64,000 bases of DNA from Corallococcus macrosporus (lineage in GTDB: Bacteria; Myxococcota; Myxococcia; Myxococcales; Myxococcaceae): contig NZ_JAFIMU010000010.1 in NCBI RefSeq assembly GCF_017302985.1, positions 186,001 through 250,000 of the forward strand. The letters are read 5' to 3'. Below are positions 52,583 through 60,568 of this stretch, piece by piece. Every line of letters starts with the position of its first letter. Positions within the stretch are counted from its first letter, which is position 1. The notes under the pieces were generated by a model, which saw only the letters and a program-made list of their open reading frames with translations, did not search any database and was not told the DNA's origin. Made by a program: the position numbers and the translations under genes.

Positions 52583-53364
52583 GACCGCACTCCCTTGCCC
52601 AGCACGTCGCGCACCTGCTTCGCCAGCGCTCCGTTGGTGGCGATGCCGTCACCGCCGAACGCCGTGCGCCTTCCCTTCCAGTCGGTGAACACGCCGCCCG
52701 CCTCCTCGATGATGGGTTGCAGCGCCGCCGCGTCCCAGGGCGACAGGCCCTCGTCCACCATGGCCTCCGCGCGGCCGGTGGCGACGAGGAGGTAGCCGTA
52801 ACAGTCCCCCCAGGTGCGGGAGAGCGACGCCTGCTGGGACAGCTCCCGCCACGCCGCGCCCTTCGCGGGGTTCTGGAGGAAGCGCTCGTCGGTGATGAGC
52901 ACCACGGCGCGCTCCAGCGAGTCCTGCTCCGACACGTGCGCCGCGGATCCGTTCCAGAAGCAGCCCAGGCCCGGGGACGCGACGACCAGCTCGTTCACGG
53001 CGGGGAAGTAGGCCGCACCCGCGAGGATGTTCTCCCCTTCCGCCACCGCGACCAGCGTGCCCCACAGCGGCACGCCCCGGATGAACGTCTTCGTGCCGTC
53101 GATGGGATCCAATATCCAGCGGCGCTTCGCGCCCGCACGCGACTCACCGAATTCCTCGCCCAGGATGCCGTCCTCGGGGAAGCGCGCCTCCAGCCACTCG
53201 CGGGCGGTCCATTCGGCGGTGCGATCCGCCACGGTCACGGGCGTTCCATCGCTCTTGGTGTCCACGGCGATGCCGCGCCGGAAGAAGTCCAGCGCCACGT
53301 CACCGGCCTTGCGCGCCACGTCGGCGGCGGCCTCCATCAGGTCTCTCGGGTCCGCGTTCTTCAT
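52579..53364 (-). CDS. hisN: Histidinol-phosphate phosphatase, inositol monophosphatase type
   Basis: The 261-residue phosphatase of the IMPase superfamily has metal-binding motifs [23 protein letters not shown] and, near the C-terminus, [18 protein letters not shown]. Its place inside the operon between hisF and hisIE, with 4-bp overlaps on both sides, supports histidinol-phosphate as substrate. It supplies the activity that gammaproteobacteria carry in the N-terminal half of HisB, which is absent from the HisB here. The length matches HisN proteins. Confidence 0.93.
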
Positions 53365-54122
53365 GTCGTGCTCCGGATGGAGATGCCGTTGTCCTTCAGC
53401 AGGGACTTCAAGGCGCCCACGGTGGTGAGGCCGTCGTGGAGGATGCCCGCGACGAGGGCCGCGTCCGCCGCGCCGACAGTCAGGGCATCGCGCACGTGCT
53501 CCGCGCGGCCCGCGCCACCGGAGGCGATGACCGGCACGTCCACGGCCTCCGCCACCGCGCGCGTCAGCTCCAGGTCATAGCCGGTGCGCGCGCCGTCCCG
53601 GTCGATGCTGGTGAGCAGCACCTCGCCCGCGCCGCGCCGGACGCACTCCTTCGCCCAGGCCACCGCGTCCAGGTCGGTGGGACGGCGGCCGCCGTGCGTG
53701 TAGACGCGGTAGCGGTCACCCTCCCGCTTCGCGTCGATGCTGGCCACGACGCACTGGGCGCCGAAGCGCTCCGCGCAGCCGGTCAGCAGCTCCGGGGTGG
53801 CCACCGCCGCGGAGTTGATGCTCACCTTGTCCGCGCCGGCCCTGAGCGCTCGGCCCACGTCGTCCACGGTGCGCACGCCGCCGCCCACCGTGAGCGGGAT
53901 GAAGAGGCGCTCCGCGGTGCGCTGGACCAGGTCCCACAGCGTCTGGCGCTCCTCGGCGCTCGCGGAGATGTCCAGGAAGGTCACCTCGTCCGCGCCGGCT
54001 TCTTCGTAGCGCCGGGCCAGTTCCACCGGGTCGCCCACGTCGCGCAGGCCCTCGAACTGGACGCCCTTCACCACGCGGCCGCCCTTCACGTCCAGGCAGA
54101 CGATGATCCGTCGGCGGAGCAT
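53361..54122 (-). CDS. hisF: Imidazole glycerol phosphate synthase cyclase subunit
   Basis: The 253-residue (beta/alpha)8 barrel starts at [20 protein letters not shown]. Catalytic Asp11 is in CLDVKGG, and the second catalytic Asp is in [15 protein letters not shown]. Phosphate-binding loops are [10 protein letters not shown] and [12 protein letters not shown]. It accepts ammonia from HisH and forms IGP and AICAR. The ATG overlaps the hisB stop by one base (TGATG). The long upstream frame to 54698 is spurious because it runs through hisB. Confidence 0.97.
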
Positions 54123-54667
54123 CACTTCACCTCCAGGGAGACGCTGCCCTTCATGCTGAAGACGACGCCGGAGTCCACCATCGCGTCGCGCAGCGCGAGC
54201 CCCAGCGCCTTGAAGGCCGCCTCGGTGAGGTGGTGGCTGTCCTTGCCGCGCAGCACCCGCAGGTGGAGCGTGATGCGCGAGTGCTCGCAGAACGAGCGCA
54301 TCCAGTGTTCGTACAGGCGGTTCTTCAACGGGCCCCGGTAGTAGAAGCGCCCGCCCGCGTCCAGGCACGCCTGCACGAGCGCGTCGTCCATGGGCAGGGT
54401 GCGCTCGCCGTAGCGCGCGGCCGTGGCGGGGATGACGCGCTGGACGGCGGTGCCCAGGGTGATGGCCACGTCCTCCATCAGGTGGTGGCGCAGGTCGCCG
54501 CGCGCGTGCAGGGTCAGGTCCAGCCCCGCGTAACGCGCGAAGGTGGCGAGCATGTGGTCGAAGAACTTGAGGCCCGTGTCCACCCGGGCCACGCCTGTTC
54601 CGCGCGCCAGCTCCACCGTGACCTGTGTCTCCTTCGTTTCCCGGACGACCGTGGTGACCGTGCTCAT
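54122..54667 (-). CDS. hisB: Imidazoleglycerol-phosphate dehydratase
   Basis: The 181-residue monofunctional enzyme starts at [20 protein letters not shown]. Metal-binding and catalytic motifs are [42 protein letters not shown], the [21 protein letters not shown] segment in part, and [12 protein letters not shown]. It is slightly shorter than the 195-residue average because of a compact N-terminus. The phosphatase domain seen in E. coli HisB is missing, and that role is supplied by hisN. The ATG lies within the hisA stop overlap (ATGA). Confidence 0.96.
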
Positions 54668-55380
54668 TCCGTGAACTCCCGCGCGACCGCGCGCGCATCC
54701 AGCCGTCCTGTGTAAAGCGCCATGCCCACCACCGCTCCGTGCGCGCCCAGCTTCGCCAGTGCGCGCAGGTCCTCCAACGTCGTCACGCCGCCGGAAGCCA
54801 GGAGCCGGTGCCGGCTCGAGCGGGCGACCTCTTCCATCAGCGGAAGGTCCACGCCGCCCAGCTGTCCCTCCTTGTGCACCGCCGTGACGAGCATCCCGCC
54901 CAGCGGCAGGGGTTCCAGCGCGGACAGCACGTCGCGGATGTCGCGCGCGCTGCCGGCCGTCCACCCCCGAGTCACCACCTCGCGGCCCTTCACGTCCGCG
55001 GCGACCACCACTCGGCCGGGGAAGCGCTCCGCGACCTCGGTGAGCCAGGCGAGGTCCTCGATGGCGCGAGTCCCCACGACGACCGAGGACGCCCCACCCG
55101 CGAGCACCGCCTCCACGCGCGAGGCATCACGAACTCCGCCACCCACCGTGAAGGTGAGGCCCGGGGCGTGCGACACCAGTCGCGCCACCACGTCCGCGTT
55201 GGAGCCCTTGCCCAGCGCCGCATCCAGGTCCACGACGTGGAACGTGCGGAAGCCCAGCGCGAGCCACTGCTTCAAGGCATCCAGCGGATCGTTCACGCGC
55301 ACGCGCTCCGCTTCGTAGGAGCCCCCCACGAGCTGCACGCACGCCCCTTCCCGCAGGTCGATGGCCGGAATGGCGATCAC
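54664..55380 (-). CDS. hisA: ProFAR isomerase (1-(5-phosphoribosyl)-5-amino-imidazolecarboxamide isomerase)
   Basis: The 238-residue barrel starts at GTG 55380 ([20 protein letters not shown]). Catalytic Asp8 is in PAIDLREG, and the second catalytic Asp is probably in [16 protein letters not shown]. Phosphate loops are [12 protein letters not shown] and [13 protein letters not shown]. It converts ProFAR to PRFAR. It is coupled to hisH by a GTGA overlap and to hisB by ATGA. Confidence 0.96.
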
Positions 55381-55970
55381 GAGGCCACCTCCTGGAGGAA
55401 CGCCTGCACGAAGCGAACACCCGCCTGGGAGGACTTCTCCGGGTGGAACTGCACGCCCAGCACGTTGCCGCGTCGCACGGACGCGGGGAACCGGTCGCCC
55501 TCGTGGGTCGTCCAGCCCACGACTTCGCGCGAATCGGCGGCGCGGCACACGAAGCTGTGCGCGTAGTACACGGTGGACAGCCGCGTGGACTCCAGCGCCC
55601 GGTCCTCCTCCACGTCGTTCCATCCAATCTGCGGGACGTGCCGCGCGGACAGCCGCGTCACCCGGCCCGGGAAGTAGCCAAGTCCCTTCCCTGCCCCCTC
55701 GTCGCTCTCCTCGAAGAGGAGCTGCATGCCCAGGCAGATGCCCAGGCACGGCAGGCCCGCGTCCAGTGCCTTCCGCATCGCTTCGCGTCCTGGAGCCAGC
55801 CGCGCCGCCGCGGATCCGAACGCTCCCACTCCGGGCAGCACCAGCACGTCGGTGTCCAATGCGCGCAGCGGATCCTCCTGCACGCGCACCTCCGCTCCAG
55901 GCGTGGTGGCCAGAGCCTTGATCAGCGAGTGCAGGTTGCCCGCGCCGTAGTCGAACAGGGTCACTCGCAT
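55377..55970 (-). CDS. hisH: Imidazole glycerol phosphate synthase glutaminase subunit
   Basis: The 197-residue class I glutamine amidotransferase starts at MRVTLFDYGAGNLHSL. The oxyanion region LVLPGVGAFGSA, nucleophile Cys in CLGICLGMQLLFEES, and the His-Glu pair in GVQFHPEKSS are all present. It feeds ammonia to HisF. The ATG overlaps the hisC TGA by one base, and the stop overlaps hisA by 4 bp. Confidence 0.96.
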   Translation of the reverse strand: MRVTLFDYGAGNLHSLIKALATTPGAEVRVQEDPLRALDTDVLVLPGVGAFGSAAARLAPGREAMRKALDAGLPCLGICLGMQLLFEESDEGAGKGLGYFPGRVTRLSARHVPQIGWNDVEEDRALESTRLSTVYYAHSFVCRAADSREVVGWTTHEGDRFPASVRRGNVLGVQFHPEKSSQAGVRFVQAFLQEVAS

Positions 55971-57007
55971 CACAGCACCTCCTTCAAGGCCTTCAGCGCC
56001 GAAGCCATCAGGGGCCAGGGACCGCAGCCGATGCGCAGCGCATCGCCCACGCCCGTGAGCCCTTCGAACACCCGCACGTTCACGTTGCGCTCCCGCAGCG
56101 CCTCGCCCACCCTGCGAGCCTCCGGCACGGGGACGAGGAGGAAGTTCCCCTCCGAAGGCAGCGGCTCCAGGCCCAGCGCCTTCAATCCGCCGCGCAGCCG
56201 CTCGCGGTTCTCCACGGCCTCCGCCGCGCAGGCCTCCATCCACGCGACGTCCTCCGTGAGCGCGGACACCGCCACGGCCTCGCCCAGCGTCGTGTGCTTG
56301 TAGGGCCCCCGTGCCTTCTCCACCTCCGCGACCAGCGACGGCGCACCGACGCCCCACCCCACCCGCAGGCCCGCGAGCCCGAACGCCTTGGACATCGTGC
56401 GCGTCACCAGGACGTTGGGCCGGGTCCTCGCGAGGTCCAGGAAGTCCCCGCCCCGCGCGAACTCCACATAGGCCTGATCAATGAGCACCACGCCGCGGGC
56501 CTCATTCACCAGCCGCTCCACCGCCGAGCGAGAGGCCACCGTGCCCGTGGGGTTGTTCGGCGTGCACACGTAGATGAGCTTCGCCCCCGTGGCGAGCAGT
56601 CCCTCCACGTCCAGGTCATGGTCCGCACGCAGCGGCACGGGCACCGGCTTGAGCGCGCTCAACCGGGCGAACATGGGCACCATCACGAACGTGGGATCCG
56701 GAAAGGCGACCACGTCTCCGGGCTCCAGGAAGGCCCGCAGCGCGCAGTCGATGACGTCGTCCGAACCACACCCCGTCGTCACGCTCTCCACCGCGACGCC
56801 CGCGTAGCGAGCCACGGCGCGCTTGAGGTCGGGCGCGTAGCCCGCGGGATAGCGGGAGAGCTTCAGGAAGCCCTCCTCGCGCAACACGCGGTCCGCCGAG
56901 GGCGGTGCGCCGAAGAGGTTGGTGTTGTCGCTCAGGTCCACCCGGCACGGCTTCTTCGCCGGGGAGTACAGCGGGATGTCCCGATACGTTTCGCGGAAGG
57001 GAATCAC
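55970..57007 (-). CDS. hisC: Histidinol-phosphate aminotransferase
   Basis: The 345-residue PLP enzyme of fold type I has substrate and cofactor motifs DLSDNTNLFGAPPSA, VTTGCGSDDVIDCALRAF, YVCTPNNPTGTVA, VLIDQAYVEFA and the PLP lysine in TRTMSKAFGLAGLRVGWG. A C-terminal FLLVPVPEARRVGEAL and LRIGCGPWPLMASALKAL follow. It forms histidinol phosphate from imidazole acetol phosphate. It overlaps hisD by 4 bp. Confidence 0.96.
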   Translation of the reverse strand: MIPFRETYRDIPLYSPAKKPCRVDLSDNTNLFGAPPSADRVLREEGFLKLSRYPAGYAPDLKRAVARYAGVAVESVTTGCGSDDVIDCALRAFLEPGDVVAFPDPTFVMVPMFARLSALKPVPVPLRADHDLDVEGLLATGAKLIYVCTPNNPTGTVASRSAVERLVNEARGVVLIDQAYVEFARGGDFLDLARTRPNVLVTRTMSKAFGLAGLRVGWGVGAPSLVAEVEKARGPYKHTTLGEAVAVSALTEDVAWMEACAAEAVENRERLRGGLKALGLEPLPSEGNFLLVPVPEARRVGEALRERNVNVRVFEGLTGVGDALRIGCGPWPLMASALKALKEVL

Positions 57008-58305
57008 GGCACCCTCCAGGCCCGCGCCGCGGCCGCGTGGGCGAAGAGCCCCTCGCTGTCCGCAAGCGTCCCCACGTCATCAGCCATCGCCGCCGCGGCA
57101 GCGGGCGTCACGCTCTGCCACGTGGTCCACCGGTAGAAGTCCAGCACGCTCAGCCCCGAGTAAGCCCGGGCCAGGCCCGCGGTGGGCAGCACGTGGTTCG
57201 CGCCCGTGAGGTAGTCGCCGAAGGCCACCGACGCGCGCTGTCCCACGAACACCGTGCCCGCGTTGCGAACGCGCGACAGGTCCTCCGAGGGCTTCGACGT
57301 CGCGAGCAGCAGGTGCTCCGGCGCGAAGTCCGCGACGAAGGGCCACGCCTCCTCCAGCGAGTCGATGCGCAGCACCGCGCCCCGGCTGCCCAGCGCCGCG
57401 AGGACGATGTCACCGCGTCGCGCGACGCGGGCCTGCTGCTCCACCGCGTCCCGCACCGCCTGCGCCAGCGGAGCACCCACCACCAGCGCCACGCAGCAGG
57501 CCTCGGGGTCGTGCTCCGCCTGCGCCAGCAGCTCACGCGCCACGGCCTCCGGGCGAGCACTCCCGTCGGCGACCACGAGGATTTCACTCGGGCCCGCGGG
57601 AGCGTCGATGGCGACGGCGTCCACCACCTGGAGCTTCGCCGCCGCCACGTAGGCATTGCCCGGTCCGACGATGCGGTCCACCCGGGGAACGCTCTGCGTG
57701 CCGTAGGCCAGCGCGGCCACCGCACCCGCGCCACCCAATGCGAAGACCCGGTCCGCGCCCGCCAGCGCCGCCGCCGCGAGCACTCCCGCGCTCGGCAGAC
57801 CGTCCGGCCCGGGCGGTGAACAGACGATGACCTCCCCCACGCCCGCCACCTTCGCGGGCACCACGCCCATGAGCACGCTGCTGGGGTACACCGCCCTGCC
57901 GCCCGGCGCGTAGACGCCAACGCGGCTCAGTGGATCCGGCCGGCGGCCGACAACGACGCCGGGCTCCGTCTCTACCTCGATGGCCTGGGGCCGCTGCGCC
58001 GCGTGCGCCCGGGCGATGTTGCGTGCCGCGCGGGTCAGCGCCTCGCGCACGTCGGACGGAATCGACTCCAGCGCCGCGTCCCACCGTGCGCGAGGAACCT
58101 CCAGGGCCTTCAACTCCACGCGGTCGAACTCGCGAGCGAAGTCGAAGAGGGCCCGGTCACCTTCCGAGCGAACGCGCGCGATGAGCGCCTGGACGCGCGA
58201 AGCCACCTGGGCGTCCGACTCCCCCGTGCGCGCCAGCAGCTTCCGCCGCGCGTCGGGCTCCAGTAAAGCCAGGGCTCCCTGATACTTGAGGACGGAGGCG
58301 CTCAT
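57004..58305 (-). CDS. hisD: Histidinol dehydrogenase
   Basis: The 433-residue zinc enzyme makes the last two oxidations to histidine. Motifs are RVGVYAPGGRAVYPSSVLMG, VCSPPGPDG, VDRIVGPGNAYVAAAKLQV, APAGPSEILVVAD, LLAQAEHDPEA (zinc and catalytic region), and APEHLLLATS with the catalytic Glu-His. YLTGANHVLPTAGLARAYSG follows near the end. The length is normal. It overlaps hisG by 4 bp, as every other junction of this operon does by 1 or 4 bp. Confidence 0.97.
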   Translation of the reverse strand: MSASVLKYQGALALLEPDARRKLLARTGESDAQVASRVQALIARVRSEGDRALFDFAREFDRVELKALEVPRARWDAALESIPSDVREALTRAARNIARAHAAQRPQAIEVETEPGVVVGRRPDPLSRVGVYAPGGRAVYPSSVLMGVVPAKVAGVGEVIVCSPPGPDGLPSAGVLAAAALAGADRVFALGGAGAVAALAYGTQSVPRVDRIVGPGNAYVAAAKLQVVDAVAIDAPAGPSEILVVADGSARPEAVARELLAQAEHDPEACCVALVVGAPLAQAVRDAVEQQARVARRGDIVLAALGSRGAVLRIDSLEEAWPFVADFAPEHLLLATSKPSEDLSRVRNAGTVFVGQRASVAFGDYLTGANHVLPTAGLARAYSGLSVLDFYRWTTWQSVTPAAAAAMADDVGTLADSEGLFAHAAAARAWRVP

Positions 58306-59159
58306 GCCATCAACCTCTCGATGCGCGTGACGAGGATGCCTTGCCCGCCCAGCGCCTTCAGCGCGTTGACCGTGCGGTAGAGCGTCTTCGACGAGACCAC
58401 CGCGTGCACCGCCACGAAGTGGCCGCCGTTCATCACGTCCACCACCGTGGGGCCGTTGAGGCCGGGCAGCACCTCGCGCACCTGCTCCAGCGACGTCTTC
58501 GGGACGTTGGCCATCAGGTAGCGCCGCCCGCGCGCCGCCAGCACCGACCCCAGCGCCTGCGTCAGCTCCTCCAACGCACGCCGGGCCTCCGCGCCGTTGC
58601 CGGGATACGCCACCAGCCGGGCGCTGGACTCCAGCACGGTGGACACCTCCCGCAGGCCGTTCATCTTCAGCGTGGAGCCCGTGGACGTGAGGTCCACCAC
58701 GATGTCCGCGATGCCCAGGTGCGGAGCGATCTCCGCCGCGCCGCTCACCGGCACCACCGTCACCTTCTGTCCGCGTTGCTGGAAGAAGGCCTGCGTCAGC
58801 CGGGGGAAGCAGGAGGCCACCCGCATCCCGTCCTTCACGTCCTCCACGCGCGTGATGCCGCTCTCGTCGCGCGCGGCCACCACCAGCCGGCAGCGGCCGA
58901 ACTCCAGGTCCATCAGCGACTCCAGCTCGCGCCCGGCCTCGTTCACCAGGTCCCAGCCGGTGACGCCCGCCTGCGCGGCGCCGTCCGCGACGAACTCCGG
59001 GATGTCCTGCGCGCGGACGAAGATGGCCTCGAACTCGCCGCCCAGGGACGCGGTGAGGGCCCGCTCACCGCGAGCGCGCACCTCCAGGCCCGCGTCGTTG
59101 AACAGCTCTCGCACTTCCTCGGACAGACGTCCTTTGTTGGGCAGGGCAATCTTCAACAT
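58302..59159 (-). CDS. hisG: ATP phosphoribosyltransferase, long form
   Basis: The 285-residue enzyme commits PRPP and ATP to histidine synthesis. It has LKIALPNKGRLSEEVRELF, PEFVADGAAQAGVTGWDLVNE, the PRPP site ADIVVDLTSTGSTLKMNGL, and a C-terminal ACT-like regulatory domain of about 70 residues (LEQVREVLPGLNGPTVVDVM). The long form is feedback-inhibited by histidine and needs no HisZ. It is the first structural gene. A histidine-rich leader and an intrinsic terminator lie just upstream, so transcription into the operon is probably attenuated. Confidence 0.97.
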   Translation of the reverse strand: MLKIALPNKGRLSEEVRELFNDAGLEVRARGERALTASLGGEFEAIFVRAQDIPEFVADGAAQAGVTGWDLVNEAGRELESLMDLEFGRCRLVVAARDESGITRVEDVKDGMRVASCFPRLTQAFFQQRGQKVTVVPVSGAAEIAPHLGIADIVVDLTSTGSTLKMNGLREVSTVLESSARLVAYPGNGAEARRALEELTQALGSVLAARGRRYLMANVPKTSLEQVREVLPGLNGPTVVDVMNGGHFVAVHAVVSSKTLYRTVNALKALGGQGILVTRIERLMA

Positions 59160-59192
59160 GGATGGGCTCGGGGGACTGCGATGGCGGAAACG

Positions 59193-59223
59193 AAAAAAGG
59201 CCCGTCCTGGGGGGACGGGCCTT
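59193..59223 (-). terminator. Intrinsic terminator between hisL and hisG (attenuator)
   Basis: On the minus strand AAGGCCCGTCC (59223-59213), a 5-nt loop, and GGACGGGCCTT (59207-59197) form an 11-bp perfect stem that runs directly into six T residues. It ends about 34 bp before the hisG ATG and 36 bp after the leader stop codon. A leader segment, GACGGG at 59300-59295, is complementary to CCCGTC (59219-59214) in the ascending arm and could form the competing antiterminator. Confidence 0.92.
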
Positions 59224-59258
59224 CGGTCACTGCGGCATCTGCCGGAAGTGGGTGCGTT

Positions 59259-59351
59259 CTAGTGCGTCACCCAGGCATGCGCGCGGCGAACGGTCCCGTC
59301 ATGGGCCGGCCGATGATGCGCATGGTGGTGATGCAGGGACGTGGAACGCAC
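59259..59351 (-). CDS. hisL: Histidine operon leader peptide
   Basis: The 30-residue frame starts at GTG 59351 (MRSTSLHHHHAHHRPAHDG, then TVRRAHAWVTH) and ends at TAG 59261-59259. It holds nine histidines, including four in a row and six within seven residues. That composition has no other plausible reason in front of a histidine operon than sensing charged tRNA-His by ribosome stalling. No Shine-Dalgarno sequence precedes the GTG. A promoter-like pair (TTGACG-N17-TAACCC) ends seven bases before it, so the mRNA is probably leaderless. The frame stays open further upstream, but that part lacks features. Confidence 0.88.
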   Translation of the reverse strand: MRSTSLHHHHAHHRPAHDGTVRRAHAWVTH

Positions 59352-59358
59352 GGCACTA

Positions 59359-59387
59359 GGGTTAACGACCGGAGGCCCCGGCGTCAA
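59359..59387 (-). promoter_or_regulatory. Putative sigma-70-type promoter of the histidine operon
   Basis: TTGACG (59387-59382) is followed after 17 bp by TAACCC (59364-59359). Transcription would start about seven to eight bases later, at or next to the GTG of hisL. The -35 element is good and the -10 element is weak, matching three of six consensus positions. This is the only promoter-like pair I found in the 293 bp between hisG and the divergent thiO gene in the minus direction. Confidence 0.55.
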
Positions 59388-59452
59388 GTCACCCCGGGTC
59401 ATCGCCTGTCTTGACGCTTGCAAACCCGTGCTCGCTTGAGCACAAGCGGCGC

Positions 59453-60568
59453 ATGGCAACCTCCGACGTCCTCGTGGTGGGCGGTGGCGTGATGGGCTGC
59501 GGCATCGCGCTGAAACTCCGTCAGGCTGGTGCGCGCGTGACGGTGCTGGAGCGCTCCATCCCCGGCGCCGAGGCCTCCAGCGCCGCCGGCGGCATCCTCG
59601 CGCCGCAGTGGGAGGCCGACGGACCGGGCCCCTTCTTCGAACTCTGCCTGCGAAGCCGCGCCCTCTATGGAAGCTTCGCCGCCGAGCTGCGCGAGCTGTC
59701 CGGCGTGGACATCGCGTACCGGCCGTGCGGCCTGCTGCGCGTCGCGTTCGACGAAGCGGACCTCCATCACGTGGAGTCCACCGTGGGCTGGCAGCACGGC
59801 ATGGGGCTGCGCGCCGAGCTGCTCGATGGCAAGGCCGCGCGCGAGCTGGAGCCGCACCTGGCCCCCACCGCCGTGGGCGCCGCGCACTTCCCGGATGATC
59901 ACCAGGTCGACAACCGGCTCCTCGTCCGCGCGCTCACCATGGCCGCCGCGCGCGTGGGCGCGGTGTTCCGCAGCGGCTACGTGCGCGGCGTGGTGCACGA
60001 ACACGGCCGCGCGGTAGGCGTGGACCTGGATGGCGAGGTGCTGCGCGCGGACGCCGTCGTGCTGGCGGCAGGCTCGTGGTCGTCCCTGGTTCAAGGTGCG
60101 GGCGTGTCGGCGCAGGCGGTGCGTCCGGCGCGCGGGCAGATGGTACAGCTGCAGACGCGGCTGCCCCTCCTGGAGCGGGTGGTGACGTCCGCGAAGGGCT
60201 ACCTGGTGCCGCGCGCGGACGGGCGGATCATCGCCGGGAGCACCATGGAGCACGTGGGCTTCGACAAGCAGGTGACTGCGGCGGGCCTGGCGCGGATCCT
60301 CGACATGGCGCTGGAGCTGTGTCCGGACCTGGGCAGCGCCCCCATCACGGAGACGTGGGCCGGCTTCCGTCCCTGGACCCAGGACGCGCTGCCCTACATT
60401 GGAGAGGGGCCCACGCCCGGTCTGTTCCTGGCCACGGGCCACTTCCGCAACGGCATCCTCCTGGCCCCCATCACCGCGAAGCTCGTCGCGCAGGCCGTGC
60501 TGGGGGAGAAGCCCTCGGTGGATCTCACCCCCTTCCGGTACGACCGGGAGACGCGGGCGCGCGGATGA
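59453..60568 (+). CDS. thiO: FAD-dependent oxidoreductase, glycine oxidase ThiO-like
   Basis: The 371-residue D-amino-acid-oxidase-type flavoprotein starts at MATSDVLVVGGGVMGCGIAL. The FAD dinucleotide loop is GGGVMG. ERSIPGAEASSAAGGILAPQ is typical of ThiO, and VRPARGQMVQLQ, GYLVPRADGRIIAGSTMEHVG in part, WAGFRPWTQDALPYIG and LATGHFRNGILLAP complete the pattern. ThiO oxidises glycine to dehydroglycine for the thiazole ring of thiamine. thiC (63590) is close by, but the two are not in one operon. Specificity for glycine is inferred. The gene is divergent from the histidine leader. Confidence 0.88.
   Translation: MATSDVLVVGGGVMGCGIALKLRQAGARVTVLERSIPGAEASSAAGGILAPQWEADGPGPFFELCLRSRALYGSFAAELRELSGVDIAYRPCGLLRVAFDEADLHHVESTVGWQHGMGLRAELLDGKAARELEPHLAPTAVGAAHFPDDHQVDNRLLVRALTMAAARVGAVFRSGYVRGVVHEHGRAVGVDLDGEVLRADAVVLAAGSWSSLVQGAGVSAQAVRPARGQMVQLQTRLPLLERVVTSAKGYLVPRADGRIIAGSTMEHVGFDKQVTAAGLARILDMALELCPDLGSAPITETWAGFRPWTQDALPYIGEGPTPGLFLATGHFRNGILLAPITAKLVAQAVLGEKPSVDLTPFRYDRETRARG

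Follow-up and report, generated by a model that had tools for sequence, protein, structure and literature searches.

A histidine biosynthesis operon is found on the minus strand of a 64,000-nucleotide stretch of the Corallococcus macrosporus genome (contig NZ_JAFIMU010000010.1), which is referred to here as the window. Its first structural gene is a long-form hisG, and it is followed by hisD, hisC, hisH, hisA, hisB and hisF, of which hisD, hisH and hisF exceed the curated profile cut-offs; for hisC, hisA and hisB the assignment is by best match, with scores under the respective cut-offs. At the hisG start (window 59160-59190 and homologues), no obvious Shine-Dalgarno sequence was seen in 11 loci inspected. 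A preliminary description of the DNA in front of hisG had claimed two paired promoter-like elements, a frame of 30 codons of which nine encode His, and an 11-bp terminator followed by six T, and all of these elements are present. The upstream neighbour of this leader, thiO, is divergently oriented, and its transcript therefore does not run into the leader terminator. In the direction of transcription, the features are as follows.

59382..59387, minus strand: -35 element TTGACG; the spacing of TTGAC is kept in relatives
59358..59364, minus strand: -10 region TAACCCT; the spacer to the -35 element is 17 nt
59259..59351, minus strand: leader peptide ORF with GTG start; 30 codons, 9 His, stop codon TAG at 59261-59259
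59252..59351, minus strand: possible 5'-end stem, GTGCGTTC (59351-59344) with GAACGCAC (59259-59252); mixed support
59313..59333, minus strand: putative regulatory His run HHHHAHH, codons 7-13, from the sequence and the stalling simulation
59291..59308, minus strand: 1:2 hairpin, CGGCCC with GGG-A-CCG, directly 3' of the His run; sequesters region 2
59295..59300, minus strand: region 2, GACGGG, the 5' core of the antiterminator within the ORF; complementary to region 3
59225..59291, minus strand: X hairpin, formed by the C-terminal half of the ORF and the sequence that separates stop codon and terminator
59214..59219, minus strand: region 3, CCCGTC; complementary to region 2 and at the same time the 5' arm of the terminator
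59193..59223, minus strand: intrinsic terminator, AAGGCCCGTCC/GGACGGGCCTT plus six T, from the terminator scan and covariation
58302..59159, minus strand: hisG, 285 aa, the long form with the HisG C-terminal domain; first structural gene; TIGR00070 and TIGR03455 above cut-off
53361..58305, minus strand: hisD, hisC, hisH, hisA, hisB and hisF, downstream of hisG, from profile matches

The leader ORF (VRSTSLHHHHAHHRPAHDGTVRRAHAWVTH) ends within the loop of the X hairpin, a structure that lengthens the antiterminator, and the last base of its stop codon is the first G of GAACGCAC. The terminator stem consists of 11 perfect base pairs (12 pairs according to the scanner), with the six T at 59198-59193. 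The window leader as a whole is exceptionally stable (z = -5.3, with 0 of 200 shuffles equally stable), and the terminator scan found one terminator compared with 0.4 +/- 0.6 in shuffles. The pairing of GACGGG with CCCGTC, which had been put forward in the preliminary description, exists as a complementarity and lies within chance for a single sequence: GACGGG occurred in 104 of 5000 shuffles, any 6-mer complementary to the terminator arm in 653 of 5000, and the helix score of the part behind the His run was matched by 45% of shuffles. This 6-bp match is weak by itself because shuffles of so GC-rich a sequence often reach it. A strict consensus promoter scan of 59100-59460 called no promoter. 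The case presented here is thus built on comparative conservation and not on the window sequence by itself.

Distribution of the leader and conservation of its RNA

The window HisG was searched in 96 genomes of the family Myxococcaceae, 73 of which gave a match, and upstream DNA was taken from all 73. A His-rich frame, the core and the terminator were found in 71 of them, and the two exceptions (G049 and G085) carry a HisG that is merely 35-36% identical to that of the window. Frame and terminator, whose joint absence from relatives had been named beforehand as evidence against attenuation, are therefore both kept in nearly the whole family. The leader occurs in Corallococcus, Myxococcus (including M. 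xanthus AM003, L164), Pyxidicoccus, Hyalangium, Archangium and Citreicoccus as well as in metagenome-assembled genomes (MAGs), and a His run lies upstream of hisG in 30/30 named myxobacterial loci. Five to nine His are encoded per leader in 70 family leaders and six in L143. Of the 71 family leaders, 70 have the core G[AT]CGGG and one has ATCGGG.

The window HisG also led to 50 non-myxobacterial loci, nearly all labelled Gemmatimonadota or Eisenbacteria, with HisG 65-75% identical to the window HisG. After one locus with 20 nt of upstream DNA (L190) had been dropped, all 49 loci whose upstream DNA was long enough had a His frame with 4-8 His, typically HHHAHHGHGPTGRG, at a distance of about 138-219 nt ahead of hisG. 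Two labels in the collection look wrong: L159, labelled Comamonas sp. KCTC 72670, has a Myxococcus-type hisG and leader, and L204, a MAG labelled Candidatus Kuenenia, has a Gemmatimonadota-like hisG and leader.

The reading frame in which the core is embedded differs between the two main groups. It is in frame 0 (Asp-Gly) in 70/71 myxobacterial leaders, and of the 48 non-myxobacterial leaders with a CGGG core, 44 have it in frame 2 (typically Thr-Gly) and the other 4 in frame 1; it is therefore the RNA, and not the peptide, that has been conserved. The 560 His codons of the 71 family leaders are CAT in 417 cases and CAC in 143; in hisG, hisD and hisC of the window, CAT occurs once and CAC nine times.

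A covariance model, R1, was built from 64 leaders. Its single match in the Corallococcus macrosporus genome is the leader described here, and 71 family genomes have a match at E <= 2.7e-8; the match that ranks next, with an E of 0.0015, looks like chance. At E <= 1e-4, 0/124 remaining Myxococcota genomes were matched. With the same threshold and strict filters, R1 was found in 94 of 298 Gemmatimonadota genomes and 7 of 47 genomes of the Eisenbacteria group, numbers that include genomes represented in the model itself (at least G195, G196 and G197-G199). Twenty matches, mostly among the weakest and none of them a model row, were inspected; each has a His-rich frame, and hisG follows directly in 18, the other two being one cut by a contig end and one that is a second copy in G293. 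This second copy (L243, G293:C210:21750-22740) lies 9.5 kb from the one at hisG and is followed by a gene for a class I/II aminotransferase (PF00155), as though a duplication had placed the switch before a further gene.

In an unrooted HisG tree, a branch (97/87) sets the main myxobacterial HisG proteins apart, and HisG of three myxobacterial MAGs falls among Gemmatimonadota rows. Rooting with the short-form HisG of another family was rejected, this protein being too distant. The three Myxococcaceae MAGs whose HisG groups with Gemmatimonadota (L182, L206 and L208) have leaders (by place L066, L068 and L067, respectively) with an altered core, GUCGGG or AUCGGG, and their placement may reflect transfer or mis-binning. 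We lean towards a single homologous family that reached several phyla along with long-form hisG, by inheritance or transfer, with a leaderless start, an antiterminator strand supplied by the C-terminal half of the ORF and an RNA core that was kept while its frame changed. The suggestion that this attenuator had been overlooked is supported, in the form of a cross-phylum family rather than of a myxobacterial one only.

For other Myxococcota with a HisG match, upstream DNA was taken at 41 of 42 loci (G138 was omitted at a contig edge, and L137 had less than 200 nt). Short His frames of 13-18 codons were seen in at least four of the 41 (L129, L130, L136 and L139), a lower bound because the scan demanded 4 His in 10 residues; L136, with 3 His, was spotted by eye. 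Scan matches in L112, L128 and L141 were judged to be no leaders. The four short leaders resemble the family leader in their His-rich ORF, in a downstream hairpin with which an antiterminator helix of 7-11 bp can form and in TTGAC 36-38 nt before the ATG, the hairpin of L130 having no T run directly behind it. No R1 match was listed for them at E <= 0.01, and they are apparently unrelated to the Myxococcaceae leader.

The position of the promoter is conserved along with the RNA. TTGAC lies 35-38 nt upstream of the leader start codon in 67/71 family leaders and 34-39 nt upstream in 44/49 Gemmatimonadota/Eisenbacteria-type leaders, and the family leaders (n = 71) show T at -13 in 82%, A at -12 in 82% and T at -7 in 83%. 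An SD-like motif was found in only 2/71 and 1/49 leaders of the two sets. The transcription start is set from the -35/-10 position by standard promoter geometry, so with this spacing the transcript would begin at the leader start codon. The leader ORF is accordingly predicted to be leaderless, with transcription starting at the GTG or within about two bases of it.

Base pairing, covariation and simulated ribosome stalling

Pairing was evaluated in an alignment of 64 leaders (A5), from which 6/49 near-duplicates and 50/71 family leaders were left out; another alignment, A4, left out L066-L068. RNAalifold on mixed alignments gave fragments only, because the variable part is misaligned in outgroup rows, and was complemented by pair counts in A5 and by arm-swap permutations (25 representatives of the 71 leaders, 20000 permutations). 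In A5, terminator pairs form in 97.9% of cells, and the covariation score, a check proposed in the preliminary description, was reached by 0/500 shuffles. The 1:2 hairpin is paired in 85.6% of cells, with a covariation score of 0.256 versus 0.143 in shuffles (0/500 for 64 rows), but two of five measures (352 and 73 of 500) are no better than in shuffles, and double changes are more numerous when the partners are slid by +2 or +3 than in the true register. Antiterminator pairs form in 86.2% of cells compared with at most 47.7% when slid. Covariation in the antiterminator core is no better than chance (79/500 shuffles reach the score), as the core is nearly invariant; an A-U to U-A change is seen in 3/56 rows only, and L066-L068 carry such a swap naturally.

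In the arm-swap test, permutations as good as the true arrangement numbered 3/20000 for the X hairpin, 0/20000 for hairpin I and 0/20000 for the terminator, with 1308/20000 for the inner X stem alone and 5284/20000 for the antiterminator core. Within 19 ingroup leaders, the counts were 243/20000 for the X hairpin and 19117/20000 for the antiterminator core. Five of six negative controls were unremarkable, but the sixth, hairpin I with one arm reversed, gave a low count too (110/20000), which means that relatedness inflates the test and that these figures are optimistic. The X hairpin has a mean z of -1.72, with z below -1 in 61/71 family leaders. For the stem that had been proposed between the 5' end and the region behind the stop codon, the complementarity stands (6/20000), but when the start codon is left out it loses its significance (2494/20000). 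For the antiterminator, complementarity in single sequences lies mostly within chance: at most 5% of shuffles reached it in only 13/49 non-myxobacterial and 10/71 family leaders.

The effect of a ribosome was simulated for RNA transcribed as far as region 3, the ribosome footprint being blocked. In this model, the probability of the antiterminator in the window leader is zero with no ribosome, 0.84-1.0 with codons 7-13 in the A site, 0.79 at codon 14 and 0.33 at codon 15, and does not exceed 0.03 from codon 16 to the stop codon, where the 1:2 hairpin dominates (0.83). Values beyond the core were zero by construction in the first stalling test, which was repeated with joint folding. The earlier proposal that a ribosome stalled at the His run would free an antiterminator is supported by the modelled stalls at codons 7-13. 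Only this first His cluster is predicted to regulate, and the His codons 17, 25 and 30 are not. Stalls at the non-His codons 3-6 likewise favour the antiterminator (0.69-0.81), so His specificity would come only from where the ribosome waits.

Across 71 family leaders, the antiterminator reaches a probability of at least 0.5 in 71 when the ribosome is placed at the best His codon, in 4 with no ribosome and in 5 with the ribosome at the stop codon. Among 42 Gemmatimonadota-type leaders (7/49 were skipped), it is favoured in 40 when stalled and in 22 with no ribosome, so that termination without translation would not be general in leaders of this type. When the full transcript is folded at equilibrium, the terminator persists even with the ribosome at His 9, and the switch must therefore be kinetic.

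Proposed mechanism, alternatives and relation to known attenuators

Altogether, the leader is predicted to be a ribosome-mediated transcription attenuator of the his operon, with a probability of roughly 0.88. Its anatomy and conservation, the covariation of the terminator and the 1:2 hairpin, and the thermodynamic fit are shown by the analysis. Histidine attenuation by a leader peptide, as proposed in the preliminary description, is the best explanation for them, and the leader family extends to two further phyla. Ribosomes would load onto the leaderless mRNA at the leader GTG. When charged tRNA-His is plentiful, the ribosome would pass HHHHAHH and cover region 2, which would be caught behind it in the 1:2 hairpin, and terminator 3:4 would form before hisG. 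When His-tRNA runs low, it would halt on codons 7-13 and open the 1:2 hairpin, so that the freed region 2 and the C-terminal half of the ORF could pair with the RNA from the stop codon through region 3. The terminator would be prevented by the long antiterminator so formed, and readthrough would allow the his operon to be transcribed. RNA carrying no ribosome would be terminated.

That the terminator belongs to another transcript, the His frame being a chance GC-rich repeat and the hisG promoter lying behind the terminator, is the least probable of the alternatives weighed here. It would agree with the absence of a consensus promoter from the strict scan and with the insignificance of the lone 6-bp complementarity, but the divergent orientation of thiO speaks against it, as does the joint retention of promoter spacing, His frame, core and terminator, with few promoter exceptions, in 71/73 family genomes and two further phyla. 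Another proposal, also very improbable and ranking just above it, sees in the C-terminal half of the peptide (DGT..RRAHAWV) a trans-acting small protein, acting besides or instead of attenuation in cis. HAHAWV is strongly conserved in most of the myxobacterial family, and a precedent has been proposed for S. meliloti peTrpL (PMC7298713); the conserved codons, however, are also the arm of the X hairpin, and the Gemmatimonadota peptide differs although the RNA core stays.

Retention of the RNA core across frames, and an X hairpin larger than a minimal attenuator requires, would also suit attenuation by a sensor other than the ribosome, such as a protein or small molecule acting on the 1:2 or X hairpin, or Rho. 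This is the least improbable of the three and still a very unlikely reading, as in both main groups a His run directly precedes the core, the fold is predicted to change over when a ribosome stalls on this run, and no Rfam riboswitch or T-box matched at the gathering score. For the ribosome-mediated attenuator, the expectation is that lack of histidine opens the operon and plenty shuts it, and that the last three His codons are irrelevant. Myxococcus xanthus, which carries the leader (L164), is genetically tractable.

In enterobacteria, the hisL leader encodes a His-rich peptide before hisG and contains a competing terminator and antiterminator. The leader described here is like hisL (RF00514) in its His-rich peptide before hisG, its competing hairpins and the same signal, but unlike hisL its ORF is predicted to be leaderless, has 30 codons, provides the antiterminator strand with its C-terminal half and has its stop codon in the X-hairpin loop. 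At the gathering score, no Rfam family, including His_leader (RF00514) and T-box, was matched in the window or in 20 loci, and RF00514 was absent among seven relaxed matches up to E 10 in 59150-59450. A relaxed match to Thr_leader (18.3 bits, with a cut-off of 55) covers the terminator only.

Attenuators of histidine genes have been predicted in Firmicutes (PMC9413887), including hisZ/hisS* leaders (PMC2965389). They are alike in being independently predicted His leader peptides outside gamma-proteobacteria, but concern other phyla, and myxobacteria and Gemmatimonadota are not named in the accessible portions of these papers. The amino acid attenuator motifs of Rfam are described as largely gamma-proteobacterial with few transfers, in an analysis that did not cover delta-proteobacteria (PMC3766115). 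No report of a His attenuator in myxobacteria or Gemmatimonadota was found in the portion of the open-access literature covered, and Vitreschak 2004 and Lopatovskaya 2010 may mention one. A predicted amino acid attenuator is now placed in Myxococcota, Gemmatimonadota and Eisenbacteria, with a covariance model to find more, and it offers a natural example of RNA pairing preserved while the overlying codons change frame. A leaderless leader ORF, if true, would couple the response to leaderless initiation.

Leaderless leader-peptide attenuators have been described for S. meliloti trpL (PMC7298713) and for the leu, trp and ilv leaders of Streptomyces lividans (PMC8079986). As is predicted here, their ORFs open at the 5' end of the transcript; they respond to other amino acids, and their start was derived from transcript data, whereas here it is derived from promoter spacing. 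Since leaderless leader peptides are already known, the hisG leader would represent a new case and no new principle. What is new are the lineages, the predicted leaderless start, the antiterminator strand borne by the ORF and the probable cross-phylum homology, and in kind the leader would be a known one, a leader-peptide attenuator.
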